A stretch of 23,840 nucleotides of DNA, from positions 1-23,840 of IMG/VR virus record IMGVR_UViG_3300042883_001486. One strand, given 5' to 3'. Positions 5,656 to 21,743 of the stretch are shown here, piece by piece. The position numbers and the translations under genes were made by a program. Origin of the DNA: a virus. The notes under the pieces were generated by a model. It made no database searches and had not been told where the DNA came from. It was given only the letters and a program-made list of their open reading frames with translations. The stretch's first letter is position 1, and each line of letters opens with the position of its first letter.

Positions 5656-6648
5656 TTAGACCGTCTTCTTGATCCCGGCCTCAGAAGCGTTAACCGCCGC
5701 CTCGGTCCAAGACCCTCCGTCCGGGTTGGTCTCCCAAATCGATTGACCGTTGGCGTAGGTTGCCGTTTGAGCAACTCCAGTGCCAAGTCGATCGGTGCTA
5801 CCCGGACGCAACACGGGGGTTACCTGCGGCGAACCCCCGGCGTCCGCTCGACCAACGACGTTAACCGCTACGGCGAGTACCGCCCCGGAGTTTGCGGTAA
5901 GATCGCCGAACGTATAGGTATCAATGTTATTGAGCGTCGAGGTGCTAACGTAGGTGGTGTCGCCATCTCCAGTCGTCTCGTCGACGGCCGCGTAGTTGGC
6001 GCCCGCCAAAGGCGTCCACTGCGTGGTTGCGCCGGCCCCGGTCGGATAAAGCGTCTGAACGATCGCCGCTCCGATTTGCGCAAAGGTGTCAGAGATCACC
6101 ACGTCGTCGATATAAAAGTAGGGGTTGCTAAAGGCATTCGGTCCAGTAAATCGAACCGAGGTAGCTCCGGCAATCGCGGTATTTTTTGTATCAACACCAG
6201 ACACCGAAATGACCGAGGCGCCGTTAAGATACACATTAACGGCTCCGGTTGAGTCATGAATGGTAACATCAAGCTCTAAATGAAACCAACTACCAAACGT
6301 AACGCTACCCCCGCTACCGAGTAGCGTGCCGGTTTCAGAACCGCGATAGACTGAGATAGTTCCGCCGCTTGCAATATTCACGGTCATTTGGATTGCCCCA
6401 GCACTATCTAGGAGCTGCACTCTACCCAAACCAGTGGCGCCAATGTAACCGCCTAGCGCAATGGAAAGCGTGCCGTAGGACGAGCCAAATGTTTTAGTAA
6501 GCACGCCGGCAACAGAGGCGCCGCCAAGGCGGATTGATCGGTTTCCAGTTCGAGCCGTTGTGACTGAGTAGTTGGTACTAGTGACCGCGGTCCATTTTTC
6601 TGTAAGTGCGGCGTTATACTGACACCCGTCAACAAAAATGATACTCAT
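5656..6648 (-). CDS. Tail protein with LamG/concanavalin-like domain
   Basis: The product is 330 residues, starting 1 nt after the fiber gene stop, with GAGGAG upstream. Residues about 1-190 look like a concanavalin A/LamG-type beta sandwich: NRSIRLGG, GSWFHLELDVTIHDSTGAVN, VYLNGA and YFYIDDVVISD. Residues about 195-330 match a segment frequent in phage tail proteins: VQTLYPTGAG, WTPLAGANYAAVDETTGDGD, then VTPVLRPGS and the end SWTEAAVNASEAGIKKTV. It is probably part of the host-contact or decoration apparatus at the tail tip, binding sugar or another surface ligand (inference). The next gene is the 16-residue repeat protein. Confidence 0.75.
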   Translation of the reverse strand: MSIIFVDGCQYNAALTEKWTAVTSTNYSVTTARTGNRSIRLGGASVAGVLTKTFGSSYGTLSIALGGYIGATGLGRVQLLDSAGAIQMTVNIASGGTISVYRGSETGTLLGSGGSVTFGSWFHLELDVTIHDSTGAVNVYLNGASVISVSGVDTKNTAIAGATSVRFTGPNAFSNPYFYIDDVVISDTFAQIGAAIVQTLYPTGAGATTQWTPLAGANYAAVDETTGDGDTTYVSTSTLNNIDTYTFGDLTANSGAVLAVAVNVVGRADAGGSPQVTPVLRPGSTDRLGTGVAQTATYANGQSIWETNPDGGSWTEAAVNASEAGIKKTV

Positions 6649-9469: not shown

Positions 9470-12018
9470 CAGGAACCAAACTCCACAGTCAAACGCTGAT
9501 TGGCCAAAAGGCCGTACGAGGCGGCCTTTGCGATGTCAATGCTTACAACCTGTCCAGCATCATTTAACGAGGTTGTAACGTATCCGGTGATGTCCTTTGC
9601 CCGATTGACCGTTTCCCCATATGCGGTTGACGTTGTATAAACTCGCACAACCATACCCTCTCGTTTGCCCGGAGCAGAAAGAGTAAATGAGGTTTGCCCG
9701 GCGTACTGGCGGAACTTACCGGAGAACTCGTTGCTGGTAGACTGTACGCCCTCAGATGAGGCGGTGCCGCTAATCTGAATAAGTGCGTAGCTGCCGAAAG
9801 ACGCTGACCAATCTTTAGAGATGTTAAAACCAATATTACGATAATCAGTTGGATCTGTGCTGAGATAGGCACGCGTCGGCACCGCTCGATCGACAATCCA
9901 TGTGGTTGTATTACTAGGAGATGGAACGCCAGTCGTGCCAGAGTTAGCCGTTGCAAAAGCTCTGGCAACCGTATAATGAGGTGACACTAATACTTTATTA
10001 TGAGTAGAAGATGTTGCCGCAATCACAAAATGCGCACTCATTTTTGTATTACTATACGGCGACTCGGCCGCTGGATATAGTCCAGGATTAAAATCTATTA
10101 CAAACCGATTAGTTCCCTCGCCCAACGAAAAAGTATGAACATTTCCAACAATACTTCCGCCGATTGACGGCGGAACAGCAGCGCTTCCTCCTGCCAAAAG
10201 ACGGGTCATCATTTCCTCAACATCCAACGGAGTATTAGATGAACCGTATGGAACATAAGAAAGCTGGGCAACGGCAATGCCGCTTACGCGGCCCGGCTCA
10301 TCAGTCGAAATGCCAGTCGCGGTGGGGGCATTTACAACTAAACATAGGCGAGCCGATTTGATTTGCGTGCCCAGTGAAATGTTTGTTTGCACCTTAAATA
10401 ATCCAATGCTCGATAAACCCTGCGTGGTATCCCCAAGCTTGTAATCATTGCCCCCGCCATAGTAAGCATCTGCACCAAAAGTGGATTTTGGCATCAGGCT
10501 TGCTCGGTTGACCGTTCCGCCCGCGCTAGTCCAGGCAAATGATTTTGGTGTATATTTAGGCTCCTGTTCACGCTGAAAAAAGTCGCTATAGGCCAACGGC
10601 ATCTTGCGAACTCCGGACGAAAGGGGGCCAAGCATTGGTTCGACATTTACCAATACGTAGTTTCCGCTGCTGCCGATTGGAGACGGAAGCACCGGAACCG
10701 TAGGAGTTGTGCCGTCCCCCGACTTGCCGCCCCCCGCCGATGCAACCGTTGGAACAAATGGCCGGAAGGCACTCGCCTCGTAGGGATCGCTGTTGAAGTC
10801 GATATCCATCCACGCCGGCTCTTCCTGCCCGGTGGACGGATTAACGTAGCCCGGCTCGAAGGCGGGCCGAATAGTAGAGATCCAGGCGTAGATATCAAAG
10901 TGGCCATCATGATCTCCGGGATGATCAATGCGATGGATATTAACCCAGCGGCCAGCCTTGACTGAGGCATCCCACGGCAGCCGGGCGTTGCCGCGAACAT
11001 TGGCGCGCTTGGCCGAGCCAATCTTACGAAGGCCGGCGGCCTGGGCCATCTGCACCGTGCGGAACTCAGTTGAAAGGCGCTCAAAGCGCTCCCCATACAG
11101 GTCAATGCTTTCGGCGTCAGAGACGGTCACGCGCTTGTCGATGATCAGTCCCGGAGTCTTAGCGCTTGCCTTCTCCCACGATACTTCGATCTTATTAACC
11201 ACGTCTGTCGCATCCTCAGCAGTAGAGATTGTTCTGGCGATAAGCATATCACGGCCCTCGACCGACGGGTCAATGTCTGGGGAGTCGGCAATCTCAAAAG
11301 AGGCGGTATTACCGGCATCTCGATCGATTGCATTCCAGGTGCGGAGAATAAAGTCGGCCCCGTCCTCTGGATCGCCCACCGGATCAATCGACCACCCCTG
11401 GCCGGCCATGGTGGCAACGTCATTAAGCAGATCCCAGTAACTTGACTCGGCCACCATCGGGAAGTACTTGGTAAATGTGAACTCTGGCGTGGCAGAAACA
11501 AACTCAGTGCTTAGGCTAATGACCGGCATTCGCCGGACGGCACGGGCAGCCTCAAGATCCTCAATCAGGCCCAGGGCCCACGCAAACATCTCCGCGGGAG
11601 TCTCATCCAAGCCGGCGGCAGGATCTGGATCTTCGGAACGGATCCGAGATCGGAACCCGGACGGCTGTTCCTGAGCGGCCTCCGCAGCACTATCCGGCTC
11701 GGGGGTGGGGATAATCGTCGAACGAAGCAGGCCATAGATATCGCTGCAAATATAGGCCGTAGACGCGTACTGACCAGCGATGGATCCCGCGTCGTTGCGC
11801 TCAATGGCATTAACAATGCCGCGGAAGATAACCGACGCCCCGTCGCGGATCTGAACTTGCGAGCCGATTACCGCCCCCTCAATCAGACCCCCAAGGGTCT
11901 CAAACTGCATACCAAGTCCGGATGGAGATGCCGTGGTGCCGGCGGAAATAGATCCAACGCGCACCTGGTTAGTGACCTCTTCCGCGGTATCCCTTAGGAG
12001 CCAAACAGACCAACTCAT
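9469..12018 (-). CDS. Baseplate hub / tail tip protein (Tal-like)
   Basis: The product is 849 residues, starting 2 nt after the tape measure stop. Its place directly after the tape measure is that of tail-tip hub proteins. The N-terminal 100 residues (MSWSVWLLRDTAEEVTNQV, then GSQVQIRD and IFRGIVNAIE) resemble gp27/Tal-type hub domains. A Pro/Glu-rich insert lies at about 105-130, then helices and strands to about 400, and a Gly/Ser/Pro linker near 430. The rest is beta-rich and resembles fiber or adhesin domains. No peptidoglycan hydrolase motif is evident, and no separate distal tail protein gene is visible, so one polypeptide may do both jobs (inference). Confidence 0.7.
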   Translation of the reverse strand: MSWSVWLLRDTAEEVTNQVRVGSISAGTTASPSGLGMQFETLGGLIEGAVIGSQVQIRDGASVIFRGIVNAIERNDAGSIAGQYASTAYICSDIYGLLRSTIIPTPEPDSAAEAAQEQPSGFRSRIRSEDPDPAAGLDETPAEMFAWALGLIEDLEAARAVRRMPVISLSTEFVSATPEFTFTKYFPMVAESSYWDLLNDVATMAGQGWSIDPVGDPEDGADFILRTWNAIDRDAGNTASFEIADSPDIDPSVEGRDMLIARTISTAEDATDVVNKIEVSWEKASAKTPGLIIDKRVTVSDAESIDLYGERFERLSTEFRTVQMAQAAGLRKIGSAKRANVRGNARLPWDASVKAGRWVNIHRIDHPGDHDGHFDIYAWISTIRPAFEPGYVNPSTGQEEPAWMDIDFNSDPYEASAFRPFVPTVASAGGGKSGDGTTPTVPVLPSPIGSSGNYVLVNVEPMLGPLSSGVRKMPLAYSDFFQREQEPKYTPKSFAWTSAGGTVNRASLMPKSTFGADAYYGGGNDYKLGDTTQGLSSIGLFKVQTNISLGTQIKSARLCLVVNAPTATGISTDEPGRVSGIAVAQLSYVPYGSSNTPLDVEEMMTRLLAGGSAAVPPSIGGSIVGNVHTFSLGEGTNRFVIDFNPGLYPAAESPYSNTKMSAHFVIAATSSTHNKVLVSPHYTVARAFATANSGTTGVPSPSNTTTWIVDRAVPTRAYLSTDPTDYRNIGFNISKDWSASFGSYALIQISGTASSEGVQSTSNEFSGKFRQYAGQTSFTLSAPGKREGMVVRVYTTSTAYGETVNRAKDITGYVTTSLNDAGQVVSIDIAKAASYGLLANQRLTVEFGS

Positions 12019-12020
12019 AT

Positions 12021-13781
12021 TTATGATGGAATATTAAAGCGGTTCAGGCGATCAATCGCCGGACGGAAGCGCGCCGCCAGCCGGTTATCGGCAGCCGGAT
12101 CAATAGTTAACTGTAGTTCCCAGTTGGCCATCGCCAGCTCCATACCATTGCGGATAATGTCAATCTGCTTATTGTAGTCATTTTGTTTGGCCGACTCGCG
12201 CGCAATCTTTTCCATAAGCACGGACTGACGACGCTGTTGCGCCCCCTGCTCCCGCGCCTCATTAAAGCGCTGACGAGCCTCAAGGATGCCGGCCGCCATT
12301 TCAAATCCACTAACACCAGCCCGGGCAACCCCGGCTCGAACCAGCTCACTGCGGGCCTCGCCAACGGTACGCGCAATCTGTCGGCGCTGTTCCGCGGCCG
12401 CCATACTATCCAGTTGACTCTGGTACTTGGCAGCGCGATCCTGAGATGTTTTAATCTTAATACTTATCGCGTCCAGTTCCGCCCCGGCACCCTCGCCCAA
12501 CCCGGCATTATTGCCCGTAAGCATAAAACGCTGTCGCTCAAGCTCATCACGCTGCTTCTCAAGCTCTGTGGTACGGCTCTTCTCTGCCTTGATGAAATCA
12601 TATGCCTGAAGCAGGCGCTTCCCCTCAATGCCGTAAACCTGCTCAAGAGTCTTGCGCTGCTCCTCATCCAAAGAGCCGTTTTCTCGCGCCACTTCAACCA
12701 ACTGTCGGGCATAGTCCAACTGTGCCTGCCTGGCAAGCGATTGCCCCGTAATGGCCAAGCCGGCACTGCGAGCCGCCTCTGTTCCCGAACCAACCCCGCC
12801 CTCCGAGCCAAAAGTGGCGTCCCAGCCGAAAAGGCGCAGCATATCGGCCTCAAATCCCTTTGACCCCAAAACGCGCAGGGCCGCCTCCATGCGCAACTTC
12901 TTAACTTCGTCTTCCGTGTAAGCACCGGCCGTTAGCCCCTTAGTCTCGGTGATGCCTTTTTCTGCCGCCAATCTGCGCTCAAATGCCGTCTGACTTTCGG
13001 ACACTCTAACGGCAGCCTCTAGCGTCTTGCGATCCTCATCGCTCATATCTAAGGCAAGGGCAAGCTTCTTTGTCCCGCCAAACTTATTGACCAAATCAGC
13101 AAGTTCTTTAGCGCGCTCCTTGGCAACGCCGAGAGGATCAACCAAAGAGCGCACCATGCTCGTTCCGGCGGTGACCAAGCCCTGAATAATCATGGTGTTT
13201 ATCATGAAGAAGCCAAAGAGGCCGGCGGTCATAAGCTGGTTAACAAAGAAGTCGGAAAAACCACGCATCTTTGTGCCGAATGATGTCATCTTCTTATTTA
13301 ACTTATCAACCTCATCCCCCGCGGCATTTGCGCTCGATGTCAGCTCAGTAACCCTAGTTTCATCACCGGCCCTTTTGGCAATCTGCAACTGATCATTAAT
13401 CCCCTCAAGCTTCATTCGAGCTTTTTCTGCATCTTGAGTTAGTTGATAAATACCAGTAATCCGCTGACTCAATGAGGAAATAACCAAAAATGGATTACCA
13501 ATATTTTTGTAAATATCCATGCCGGCAGCCTTACTTTCGCGGCGAAGGCCAGCAATGCGCAAGGACAGTTGGTCTAATCCGTCCTTGGCAGCCTTAGCGC
13601 TAAGGCTAGGATCAGTAGGCGGCGGAGCGGGCGGGCCCAAAGGAGTTCCGGGCGTCACGCCAGAAGGGCCACTGCCAACGATTGTGGCGGCGGTAGACTT
13701 AATCTTCGATAGGCTGGCCTCAAGTTCGGATGTATCTCCGACAATCTTGATTACAAGCCGCTGTGCATTGGCGTCTGCCAT
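12021..13781 (-). CDS. Tail tape measure protein
   Basis: The product is 586 residues, with AAAGGAAG upstream of the ATG. It is mainly helical and coiled-coil (about 115-165 and 385-560). A Pro-rich stretch lies near 44-58 (GTPLGPPAPPPTDP) and a hydrophobic segment at 183-210 (LMTAGLFGFFMINTMIIQGL), as in many tape measures. Its place after the two overlapping chaperone frames and before the baseplate gene supports the call. At about 0.15 nm per residue it would set a tail near 88 nm, short for a siphovirus. No lytic transglycosylase or peptidase domain is seen. Confidence 0.85.
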   Translation of the reverse strand: MADANAQRLVIKIVGDTSELEASLSKIKSTAATIVGSGPSGVTPGTPLGPPAPPPTDPSLSAKAAKDGLDQLSLRIAGLRRESKAAGMDIYKNIGNPFLVISSLSQRITGIYQLTQDAEKARMKLEGINDQLQIAKRAGDETRVTELTSSANAAGDEVDKLNKKMTSFGTKMRGFSDFFVNQLMTAGLFGFFMINTMIIQGLVTAGTSMVRSLVDPLGVAKERAKELADLVNKFGGTKKLALALDMSDEDRKTLEAAVRVSESQTAFERRLAAEKGITETKGLTAGAYTEDEVKKLRMEAALRVLGSKGFEADMLRLFGWDATFGSEGGVGSGTEAARSAGLAITGQSLARQAQLDYARQLVEVARENGSLDEEQRKTLEQVYGIEGKRLLQAYDFIKAEKSRTTELEKQRDELERQRFMLTGNNAGLGEGAGAELDAISIKIKTSQDRAAKYQSQLDSMAAAEQRRQIARTVGEARSELVRAGVARAGVSGFEMAAGILEARQRFNEAREQGAQQRRQSVLMEKIARESAKQNDYNKQIDIIRNGMELAMANWELQLTIDPAADNRLAARFRPAIDRLNRFNIPS

Positions 13782-13790
13782 AGTCTTCCT

Positions 13791-14000
13791 TTAAAGTAGG
13801 GTTGGATGCTGGCCAGGAAACCGGCCATGCTTTTTAAAAAACTCAAGTTCCAGCTGAAAATCGCGCTCAGTAATGCGACCATCAAGCTCTGAACGAAAAA
13901 GGCCACGAGAGGCCGCGAGTTCCATTTCGAACTCGGCAGTGCCGTCTAGTTTCGGCCGAAGGCCGCGGTCAGGAGGCGGCGCGAAATGTGGCAAGCGCAT
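13791..14000 (-). CDS. Tail assembly chaperone, downstream (GT-like) frame
   Basis: It encodes up to 69 residues if read from ATG 14000, overlapping the upstream chaperone frame by 32 nt. A TAG two codons before this ATG limits any frameshift fusion to nt 14003-13969. The frame is +1 (equivalently -2) to the upstream one. GGAGG lies 12 nt from ATG 14000, rather far, so I favour expression as a C-terminal extension by frameshifting near TCC-TGA, though independent initiation is possible. The helical, charged end (ELDGRITERDFQLELEFFKK) resembles gpT-type extensions that recruit tail tube and tape measure. Confidence 0.65.
   Translation of the reverse strand: MRLPHFAPPPDRGLRPKLDGTAEFEMELAASRGLFRSELDGRITERDFQLELEFFKKHGRFPGQHPTLL
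13953..13974 (-). promoter_or_regulatory. Candidate frameshift site with stem-loop
   Basis: On the minus strand TCC (13974-13972) is followed by the stop TGA (13971-13969). After 3 nt comes CGGCC-TTC-GGCCG (13965-13953), a 5-bp all-GC stem. A weak-stop codon context plus a nearby hairpin fits programmed +1 frameshifting into the second chaperone frame. The stem could be chance in GC-rich DNA. Confidence 0.45.
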
Positions 14001-14358
14001 CGTCTACGCTTACCTCCCCCTCGGCAACCTTAGCCAGCATTTCCTTGCGACCGGCGTCATCAAGGTCAGTGCCATACCCATTAAACTCGCCGATTGCCTG
14101 CGCTAGGGCGTCAAATGCCTTAGAGTCCATTTCCGCGAGCTTCTTAACGTCCGCACGATCAAGCGCGGGCTCTACAAGGCTCTCGACGATCAGGATCTCG
14201 TCGGCGTCCTTGTCTCCGGCCAGAACTGCCTCAACCAGCGCCTTCTTGGCCCGTCGGGTTAGTGCGCGGATCGTGATCTCGCCGCCGAGCGCCGCAATCT
14301 CGACCGTCTTTGTTTCTGGAGAAATCCCCAGAAGCTGGTCCTTAGTGAGCTTTGCCAT
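13969..14358 (-). CDS. Tail assembly chaperone, upstream (G-like) frame
   Basis: The product is 129 residues; its ATG shares one base with the TAA of the gene before. A helical fold follows a short beta start: TKTVEIAALGGEITIRALTR, then KKALVEAVLAGDKDADEILI, VEPALDRADVKKLAEMDSKA and AIGEFNGYG. This pattern (a 'how many residues are available' protein ending in an N-G-Y/F-G loop) is typical of small tail chaperones before the tape measure. It would bind the tape measure and tail tube during assembly and not enter the virion. The second frame overlaps its 3' end. Confidence 0.8.
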   Translation of the reverse strand: MAKLTKDQLLGISPETKTVEIAALGGEITIRALTRRAKKALVEAVLAGDKDADEILIVESLVEPALDRADVKKLAEMDSKAFDALAQAIGEFNGYGTDLDDAGRKEMLAKVAEGEVSVDDALATFRAAS

Positions 14359-14696
14359 TATGCATTCTCCTTCTTGATTGGGCCGTCAAAAACGTCCCCC
14401 TTACTTAGCGGGCTATCGCCGCGCAAGCTGATGATCTGACCCTCGATAGACTTGATGGTCAGGGAGGTGGCCAGGCGATCAGATCGCCGGCGCTTTGGAT
14501 GTGAAAGAAAGGTTAGTCGCACGTCCACCCCCGGAGTGCACCAATAGTCGCCTGCCCCCACAATAGTTCCGGTGAAGGCGGCGATTACCCCGCCGGCCGG
14601 ATTTGAAGAAAAGGTACCGGTAAGGTCCTCGACCGCGGCGACAAATCTGCCGCCGCGGTCCAGGACACCAACAGTCGGTCCGACTGCGACACTCAT
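14358..14696 (-). CDS. Hypothetical protein in tail block, 112 aa
   Basis: Its ATG overlaps the stop of the tail tube gene by one base (TAATG), so it is translated with it. The sequence looks beta-rich: an N-terminal half with FVAAVEDLTGTF and VIAAFTGTIVGAGDYW, then strands VDVRLTFLSH and LTIKSIEGQIISLRGDSPL. No family is recognised. Its place between tail tube and chaperone suggests a tail component, for example a tube-related or decoration protein. Confidence 0.6.
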   Translation of the reverse strand: MSVAVGPTVGVLDRGGRFVAAVEDLTGTFSSNPAGGVIAAFTGTIVGAGDYWCTPGVDVRLTFLSHPKRRRSDRLATSLTIKSIEGQIISLRGDSPLSKGDVFDGPIKKENA

Positions 14697-15100
14697 TAGC
14701 TGAGATCGCCCTCGGCCTGTCGGTAGAATGTAATCGTACGTCGGGACTCAGCGTTTGGTCCACCCGTCTGGAAACTTCCAGTTACGAATGACTCCCACGC
14801 GTACACAGGGGTTGTGCCCCCGTCAGCGTAAAAGTAGCAGTTCACGGTTGTGCCCGAAAGCCCGTCCGTGATTGCTGAAGCCAAAGTAGCGTCGCCGTCG
14901 GCGATGACTTCTGCCGTGATCATACCGGCCTGAAGGCCGACGATCATCTTCTTATGGTCATTGCCTGCCACGGTCACGTCGATCGTGTCCGGAGCATCGA
15001 CTGTCCACGAAACAAGCCCGGTTAGCGACGTAGCGCCTGCCGGACCCTCATCGTTAGGTCCAATCTTGATGACCGCATTGCGGCCAACGGTTACTGCCAT
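14696..15100 (-). CDS. Major tail protein (tail tube)
   Basis: The product is 134 residues, with AAAAAGGAGA 9 nt before the ATG. It is mostly beta: MAVTVGRNAVIKIG, LVSWTVDAPDTIDVTVAGND, then KKMIVGLQAGMITAEVIAD, TTVNCYFYADGG and RRTITFYRQAEGDLS. The 'T-I-D-V-T' and 'G-L-x-x-x' rhythm is seen in TP901-1/lambda-type tube proteins. The location after the DUF3168 completion gene and before the chaperones is that of the tube gene in siphoviruses. It would form stacked hexameric rings around the tape measure. Confidence 0.8.
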   Translation of the reverse strand: MAVTVGRNAVIKIGPNDEGPAGATSLTGLVSWTVDAPDTIDVTVAGNDHKKMIVGLQAGMITAEVIADGDATLASAITDGLSGTTVNCYFYADGGTTPVYAWESFVTGSFQTGGPNAESRRTITFYRQAEGDLS

Positions 15101-19979: not shown

Positions 19980-21364
19980 TATCGTCTCGTGCTCCATGGG
20001 CTACGGACAAGGCGAACGGGGCGATTGCTCCGGACTGCCAGCGCACTCAGTGCGCCCGACGCGGCATCTACCTGGTCGTCGTGAAACCCAGGTAGGGGGA
20101 ATGCCTCGAGCTCGTCAAAGAAACTGGCATTCCATGGACCGCGCACAATCCAAACATCTCCCGCTTCGGCCATCGCCGCGAACGGATTTGCACGAACCTC
20201 CTTGCTACCTGTGCTGCGAATAGCCTTGAAGTCGAACCCAAATAGTACCTGACGACGATAGCGATCCGCAACCGCCACGCCAGATGCTCCTGGTTCCTGC
20301 TCCATGCGGACGGCCACAGCCTTGCCATCCCTCTCCGCAACCTCGCGGACCTTCTCTTCTACCTTGCCGGGCGTCGCACGGAACCGGACGATATCGCCAA
20401 TAACAACGCTTCCGTCCTTGCGGCGACCCACGAGCGCTCCGACGGTGTAGTCTGGATCTTTGCCCTTCGCGGCCTCTGTTGCGGCGAGGTCCCAAAAGCG
20501 GATCCACTGGATCATATCCTCTGGGCGCGTATCAGTTAGTTTACCATCAAACCATTCCTTGCGGAACTTCTGACCGGTCTCAGTTGCCACCCAGTCGCCA
20601 TTCAGCAGGCGTGCCCGCTGGACGGGATCAAGGATCATAAGGGAGTTGATGTAGGACTCTCGGTCAAGGTGGGGGTTGTCGTTGACGCTGGCCGGAACGA
20701 AGAGGCGGTCAGACTCGAGCCCCTCCGGCTTGTCGATAAAGCGCCGACGGACCCACTCGTGGCCGGGGCCCCCCGGGTTAGTGGCGGCACGGACTCGGAG
20801 CGGAACCTGGGACGTAGACAATCGGCGCAGACGGCTGAAGAGATAGAGATACTGGTACTCGTGGGGGAACTGGGTCAACTCATCGATCCCAATAAACTGG
20901 AACTCCGCACCCTGGTAACGAAGCTCGTCGCCATCGTGCTCGAGGTAGCCAAAGGAAAGCGTGGCACCGGACGGGAAGGTGAAGCGATAGTTGACCCCAT
21001 CCCAGTGGGCATCGGATCCGGCCAGCCAGGCGCGAGCGCGATACATGATCGCCTCGGGCAGCGCAAGGTCCTTGTAGCTACGACGAAGAATGAGCGCGTT
21101 GTAGCCGGGCACGTCAACATACTGCAGTGCCGCCATCAGGAGCGCTGAAGACTTCCCGCCGCCAGCGGCTCCTCCGTAAAGGGCCTCTTGGCAGTCTAGA
21201 AGTAAGAAAGCCGCTTGTGGCGGCTCAGGCGCCTGTGGAATATACTTCGTCATCCTCGGTGTCGTCGCTTTCGCCAACTCCGCCAGTTTCTCCGGCGACG
21301 CTGAGCGCACTAGCGATAGCCAGTGTTCCGAGGATGCGAGCGATGCGTTCTGGGTCTCCGGCAT
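19979..21364 (-). CDS. terL: Terminase large subunit
   Basis: The product is 461 residues from ATG 21364, with AAGGTGGAG at ideal spacing; it overlaps the small subunit by 140 nt. TTG 21367 and ATG 21253 are alternative starts. I keep the longer form because the SPEKLAELAK segment before TKYIPQ is usual in this family. ATPase: Walker A GGAAGGGKS (64-72), Walker B FIGIDE (157-162), coupling motif AATNPGG (193-199). RNase H-type nuclease: D292 (FWDLA), acidic E355/E357, D429-D430 (HDDQVDA). It pumps and cuts DNA during packaging. The packaging type cannot be told by eye. Confidence 0.93.
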   Translation of the reverse strand: MPETQNASLASSEHWLSLVRSASPEKLAELAKATTPRMTKYIPQAPEPPQAAFLLLDCQEALYGGAAGGGKSSALLMAALQYVDVPGYNALILRRSYKDLALPEAIMYRARAWLAGSDAHWDGVNYRFTFPSGATLSFGYLEHDGDELRYQGAEFQFIGIDELTQFPHEYQYLYLFSRLRRLSTSQVPLRVRAATNPGGPGHEWVRRRFIDKPEGLESDRLFVPASVNDNPHLDRESYINSLMILDPVQRARLLNGDWVATETGQKFRKEWFDGKLTDTRPEDMIQWIRFWDLAATEAAKGKDPDYTVGALVGRRKDGSVVIGDIVRFRATPGKVEEKVREVAERDGKAVAVRMEQEPGASGVAVADRYRRQVLFGFDFKAIRSTGSKEVRANPFAAMAEAGDVWIVRGPWNASFFDELEAFPLPGFHDDQVDAASGALSALAVRSNRPVRLVRSPWSTRR

Positions 21365-21743
21365 CAATCTCCACCTTATTTACGATGACATTGCTGGTGG
21401 CAAGTTGCCCCCCCACGGTCACCTTCGCGTTTCGACTAAACTCTTCCGGCATGGTTCGCTCGAGGATCCAGGCCGCGGCCTTCCAATCGCCCTCTTCGGA
21501 CGACTGCTCGATGCGTCGCAGAAGCTTCTCGCGCCGACGAAGCTTGGCCTCATCAATGCGCTCGCCCAACTCTGGGTCCTGCTCCAACCAATCGTAGAGG
21601 GTGCGACGGCCGATCCCCGCAACTCGTGCCGCGTCTGTTAGTGTCCCACCGGCCTCGATGGCGTTGAGGACGGCCTCGATGGTCTCGGGCGTCTTCTTGG
21701 TCATGCCGATCGGAGCTGGCTTCGAGGTAATCTCTTCGCTCAT
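21225..21743 (-). CDS. terS: Terminase small subunit
   Basis: The product is 172 residues from ATG 21743, with TAGGAGA 5 nt upstream; an open frame to 21815 lacks such a site. Residues about 32-55 form a helix-turn-helix (GTLTDAARVAGIGRRTLYDW), followed by a helical oligomerisation part (ELGERIDEAKLRRREKLLRR). The middle is EEGDWKAAAWILERTMPEEF, a segment typical of phage small terminases. The C-terminus is acidic (ESDDTEDDE). It recognises the packaging site. It is the first gene of the leftward virion block and overlaps terL. Confidence 0.85.
   Translation of the reverse strand: MSEEITSKPAPIGMTKKTPETIEAVLNAIEAGGTLTDAARVAGIGRRTLYDWLEQDPELGERIDEAKLRRREKLLRRIEQSSEEGDWKAAAWILERTMPEEFSRNAKVTVGGQLATSNVIVNKVEIDAGDPERIARILGTLAIASALSVAGETGGVGESDDTEDDEVYSTGA

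Follow-up and report, generated by a model that had tools for sequence, protein, structure and literature searches.

Few recoding events in phages are as conserved as frameshifting in the genes for tail assembly chaperones. In the known chaperone pairs the G-T fusion links the tape measure protein and the tail tube protein (PMC5009743), and because it bridges the two there is a strong prior for frameshifting in any pair of this kind. In Streptomyces phage phiSASD1 (gp35/gp35.1) and its relatives (L036, L042, L043) the shift is -1 on GGGAAAC beside the stop codon and leads into a long T domain (phrog_337), and lambda gpG/gpGT also uses a -1 shift. Chaperone frameshifts of +1 are as such already annotated, in cluster F1 mycobacteriophages such as Karhdo (PMC10793310) and in archaeal HSTV-2, where the shift was inferred (PMC5009743). 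At the end of other tail genes, +1 sites are described for Listeria PSA tsh (CCC_UGA; PMC5009743) and SPP1 gene 17.1 (CCC_UAA; PMC6316719), where the protein extended is the tail tube protein and not a chaperone.

The DNA analyzed here (the window) is a virus record of 23,840 bases from an uncultured phage whose late genes lie on the minus strand in the order terminase, portal, scaffold, capsid, neck and tail genes, chaperone, second frame and a 586-aa ORF (Table 1). The second frame fills the gap between the first chaperone ORF and this last ORF, directly before it, and the locus is of the gpG/gpT tail assembly chaperone type. It shares with the phiSASD1 group a homologous first chaperone (phrog_344), an overlapping second frame and a position between the major tail protein and tape measure genes, and differs from it in being +1 in register, in lacking a heptamer and in having a short second ORF that carries an ATG and a Shine-Dalgarno (SD) sequence of its own. 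Gene order and first chaperone are also those of lambda and HK97, although lambda shifts by -1, and in the window a fusion is putative. The second chaperone frame of the F1 phages Karhdo and Sandalphon and of HSTV-2 is likewise +1, but there the shift is annotated, an internal start goes unreported in their descriptions, and no sequence relation to the window was found. PSA and SPP1 share the +1 register at a tail gene end, with CCC in place of UCC. The arrangement departs modestly from a layout familiar in phages, and a separate start for the second protein fits its sequence at least as well as a slip.

Table 1. Features of the chaperone locus and its neighbours.
Feature	Position	Strand	Evidence
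First tail assembly chaperone (gpG-like), 129 aa	13969..14358	-	ORF; phrog_344; Foldseek HK97 2ob9
Second frame, +1 to first chaperone ORF	13791..14003	-	Open frame; codon usage; BFVD A0A6J5PUR7
SD-like sequence inside first chaperone gene, GGGGGAGGU / GGGGGAGGT	14012..14020	-	Anti-SD pairing energy
ATG, probable start of second protein	13998..14000	-	Second codon of open frame
TTT_CGC in first-gene frame, candidate +1 slip site	13981..13986	-	Re-pairing score; PA-X likeness
TCC_TGA, last codon and stop of first gene, proposed slip site	13969..13974	-	Read from sequence
Hairpin CGGCC-TTC-GGCCG	13953..13965	-	Read from sequence; folding
586-aa ORF in the place of the tape measure gene	12021..13781	-	ORF position; no informative family match
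Major tail protein, two genes upstream of chaperone	14696..15100	-	phrog_10528, E=2e-4

Elsewhere in the genome, the large terminase (19982-21367, minus strand) is closest to those of Gordonia phages and of archaeal psiM2 and psiM100, at 45-52% identity, and the capsid is closest to those of phiSASD1 and Bacillales phages; with such different closest relatives for the two proteins, the genome is mosaic. A tail-module protein (5659-6648, minus strand; phrog_2448) has its nearest named relatives in Caulobacter, Brevundimonas and Sphingomonas phages, hinting at an alphaproteobacterial host. The tape measure gene is followed by one for an 849-aa late protein (9472-12018, minus strand) that has no SD sequence and gave no match to a PHROG family or a named phage. 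Profile searches with the 586-aa ORF itself returned no informative family.

The first ORF matches the tail assembly chaperone family phrog_344 at profile level (E=3.2e-8) and is 32-33% identical to the chaperones of L089 and L091. Its AlphaFold model (pLDDT 70.7) finds as best PDB matches in Foldseek the HK97 chaperone 2ob9 (probability 1.0, E 3.7e-3) and also YqbN (3klu). A position between the major tail protein and the tape measure gene, the latter named by position only, fits a gpG-type protein as well. In BFVD there is a 129-aa protein 95% identical to it.

Regarding the second frame, re-reading of the sequence upheld every coordinate that an earlier, sequence-only reading had given: the first ORF (14358-13969) closes with GCC GCC TCC TGA, the stop occupying 13971-13969, and the second frame has a TAG at 14006-14004, is open from 14003 to a TAA ending at 13791 and carries an ATG at 14000. 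The stretch scores +17 bits for codon usage in this frame and -9 and -46 in the two others, which suggests that it probably codes for protein. The product from ATG 14000 would have 69 aa, and BFVD entry A0A6J5PUR7, also of 69 aa, is 98% identical to it across all 69 columns, although this entry is probably an automatic gene call rather than a measured N terminus. The two BFVD matches, of 69 and 129 aa (UniProt A0A6J5PUR7 and A0A6J5S4Z6), imply that a diverged sequence keeps both ends. That reading had also taken the two ORFs for a chaperone pair, which holds for the first by family and fold; the second is coding-like, and its ungapped resemblance over 37 residues to the phiSASD1 T domain is matched or beaten by 10-19% of shuffles. 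Considering that this resemblance is not significant, a T-like role for the second protein is suggested by its position. Comparison with T domains by hhalign and with PHROG profiles gave no significant match, and the protein modelled alone is poorly predicted (pLDDT 57.6, two helices). The second ORF also contains a terminator-like stem followed by TTTTT (13903-13918, minus strand).

The +1 register of the second frame, already pointed out in the sequence-only reading, was borne out, and it is unusual since the relatives inspected use -1. The first chaperone has distant relatives in phiSASD1 (L005), L036, L042, L043 and L089-L091; in all of them the second frame is -1, and GGGAAAC or AAAAAAC stands at the stop or directly ahead of it. 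The capsid-related L018 and L022 are -1 too. This comparison covers loci inspected by eye, an automated survey of frames before tape measure genes being too noisy for counts of +1 and -1. Given that all of the inspected relatives use -1 and that the window has no heptamer, the +1 register is a real change in this lineage, and under either mechanism the window differs from its own chaperone family, which is -1 wherever inspected. Searches for DNA of close relatives with the first chaperone, tape measure, terminase, capsid, 849-aa and major tail proteins and with the window DNA found none in the collections searched, and a search for the junction pattern returned two chance matches only. In Sandalphon (Cheoctovirus; L008:8549-9485) the length of the annotated chaperone join implies a +1 or -2 shift, with CCC_GAG close to the end as a candidate for a +1 slip.

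The agreement of the relatives on -1 would also be explained if the assembly had lost a base, so that the true second frame is -1, reached by a slip on G_GGG_GAG (14020-14014), or so that both frames form one gene. The G_GGG_GAG resembles the GGGGGAA motif present in many actinophage chaperones (PMC10885494). The separate database proteins, 95% and 98% identical, nevertheless keep both ORF lengths exactly, no homopolymer in the overlap exceeds 3 and the other tail genes are intact. We therefore regard a missing base as very improbable, and in view of the same database proteins a sequencing error that joins the frames, raised earlier as a possible objection, is unlikely. As the sequence stands, G_GGG_GAG (14014-14020, minus strand) lies in the first-chaperone frame, and a -1 slip on it would run for about 22 residues to a TAG near 13949, leaving the second ORF untranslated.

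To evaluate programmed shifts, P-site re-pairing after a +1 slip was scored at each codon of the 12-codon overlap. Only UUU_CGC, four codons before TCC-TGA, re-pairs perfectly (UUU to UUC at 13986); the match is fair for CUU_G and poor for UCC_U, at the stop, with a first-position mismatch from UCC to CCU. A +1 programmed shift at UUU_CGC (13986-13981), with the P-site tRNA-Phe moving from UUU to UUC and reading continuing as A-P-P-P-D-R-G, would yield a fusion of about 187 aa. This TTT CGC is of the UUU_CGN type, whose proven example is the UUU_CGU of influenza PA-X (PMC3498833), and the +1 chaperone shifts of Karhdo and HSTV-2 add a precedent among chaperones. UUU_C is found in 2.7% of the 12-codon windows of the phage; since 37% contain a perfect +1 site of one kind or another, finding it in the overlap is weak evidence. 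Moreover, CGC is the commonest Arg codon of the phage (129/290), hence no slow A-site codon is evident, and the site is without an SD at a prfB-like distance. Taken by itself, a slip at UUU_CGC is a possible but rather doubtful route to the second frame.

The sequence-only reading had placed the +1 shift at TCC-TGA instead, and this proved not to be the best-supported mechanism, considering the poor UCC to CCU re-pairing and the better slip site at UUU_CGC. UCC_UGA is the usual shift site of eukaryotic antizyme (PMC5009743), and a stop codon in the A site stalls ribosomes, here with a hairpin beginning 3 nt later. The re-pairing at UCC_UGA is, however, described as unexplained by the authors of PRFect (PMC10885494), and phage stop-codon sites of this type, those of PSA (PMC5009743) and SPP1 (PMC6316719), use CCC before the stop where the window has TCC. 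The hairpin, read correctly before as a 5-bp GC stem that begins 3 nt past the stop, does exist but has a short stem; about 2% of 20-nt windows contain a 5-bp stem of G and C only with a loop of 3-6 nt. Folding around it is ordinary (z of -0.88 for the 101-nt region; 24th percentile for the 45 nt after the stop), Rfam gave no match, and no evidence emerged that the hairpin does more than possibly assist: it may promote a shift, hold ribosomes back or have no effect. An antizyme-like shift at UCC_UGA_C aided by this hairpin is accordingly improbable.

In +1 shifts of the prfB type an SD lies about 3 nt before the slip codon, and CUU precedes UGA. In the window the SD is 37 nt before TCC, and the codon before the stop is TCC. 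A -2 shift of the phage Mu kind within the overlap would arrive in the same frame as +1, but no tandem -2 re-pairing scores well and the overlap has no G-run motif; we give it hardly any weight. The overlap also has no -1 heptamer of the X_XXY_YYZ form.

The strongest SD match of the region lies inside the end of the first gene. The sequence GGGGGAGGU (14020-14012) pairs with the anti-SD at -11.5 kcal/mol, the best value among 219 ATGs, whereas in 12/14 neighbouring genes the energies range from -4.0 to -7.1 and 2/14 have no SD. Among the internal out-of-frame ATGs of the phage, 1/148 reaches this energy, namely ATG 14000 alone, the codon that comes second in the open frame. This ATG has an SD at functional, if suboptimal, spacing, as an independently initiated overlapping gene needs. 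GGAGG lies 12 nt from ATG 14000, and the aligned spacing of 10 exceeds the 1-8 found in most neighbouring genes whose SD is clear; measured from the SD centre the distance is 14 nt, at the end of the 8-14 nt accepted in the annotation of SPP1 (PMC6316719). From the SD it is 25 nt to TTT and 37 nt to TCC, too far to stimulate a slip at either codon, but ATG 14000 is within reach. The SD bases also encode E-G-E-V of the first protein, so its sequence is partly dictated by that protein; 4.4% of the synonymous recodings of the same peptide reach -11.5 kcal/mol. Among the second frames of ten related loci, at least nine of them in the -1 register, 0/10 have a start codon with a strong SD upstream of the first stop. 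The alternative that the earlier reading had allowed, a start at ATG 14000, gains support from this SD, from the lack of a comparable one in relatives and from the catalogued 69-aa protein.

We favour, at somewhat better than even chances, independent translation of the 69-aa second protein from ATG 14000. What is directly supported is the two frames, the identity of the first chaperone, the coding-like codons of the second and the SD with its ATG. In the proposed mechanism, the strong, slightly over-spaced GGGGGAGGU would drive initiation at ATG 14000, and the second protein would be made at a low level in fixed proportion to the first; we infer that initiation occurs, that the second protein acts as a T domain and that fused protein would be needed in small amounts or not at all. 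By a post hoc estimate, an SD and ATG at the opening of the frame would, under pure frameshifting, arise by chance with a probability of around a percent. The +1 register is uncommon for chaperone shifts, and an independent start is indifferent to register. Counted against the internal start are the aligned spacing of 10, the coding of E-G-E-V by the SD bases, a 69-aa database entry that is probably automatic and the tether between tape measure and tail tube, which an unlinked T would lack. The main rival to independent initiation is a +1 shift at UUU_C or UCC_UGA, which, the two sites taken together, we hold to be a serious possibility at clearly less than even chances. These weights follow from setting the coincidence of SD and ATG against the prior for frameshifting, and they are a judgement rather than a calculation.

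Both mechanisms could operate together, with some low-level +1 shifting alongside the internal start. A stronger form, in which a lineage of a normally -1 chaperone family has switched to +1 on UUU_CGN and added an internal start, so that T-like protein is made in fused as well as in free form, seems to us rather unlikely. If the window holds only another +1 chaperone shift, it is one case more beside those annotated. A lineage with a +1 register and a strong start signal would help to test whether the two chaperone parts need fusing, and how a frameshift gets replaced or turned in direction during evolution.
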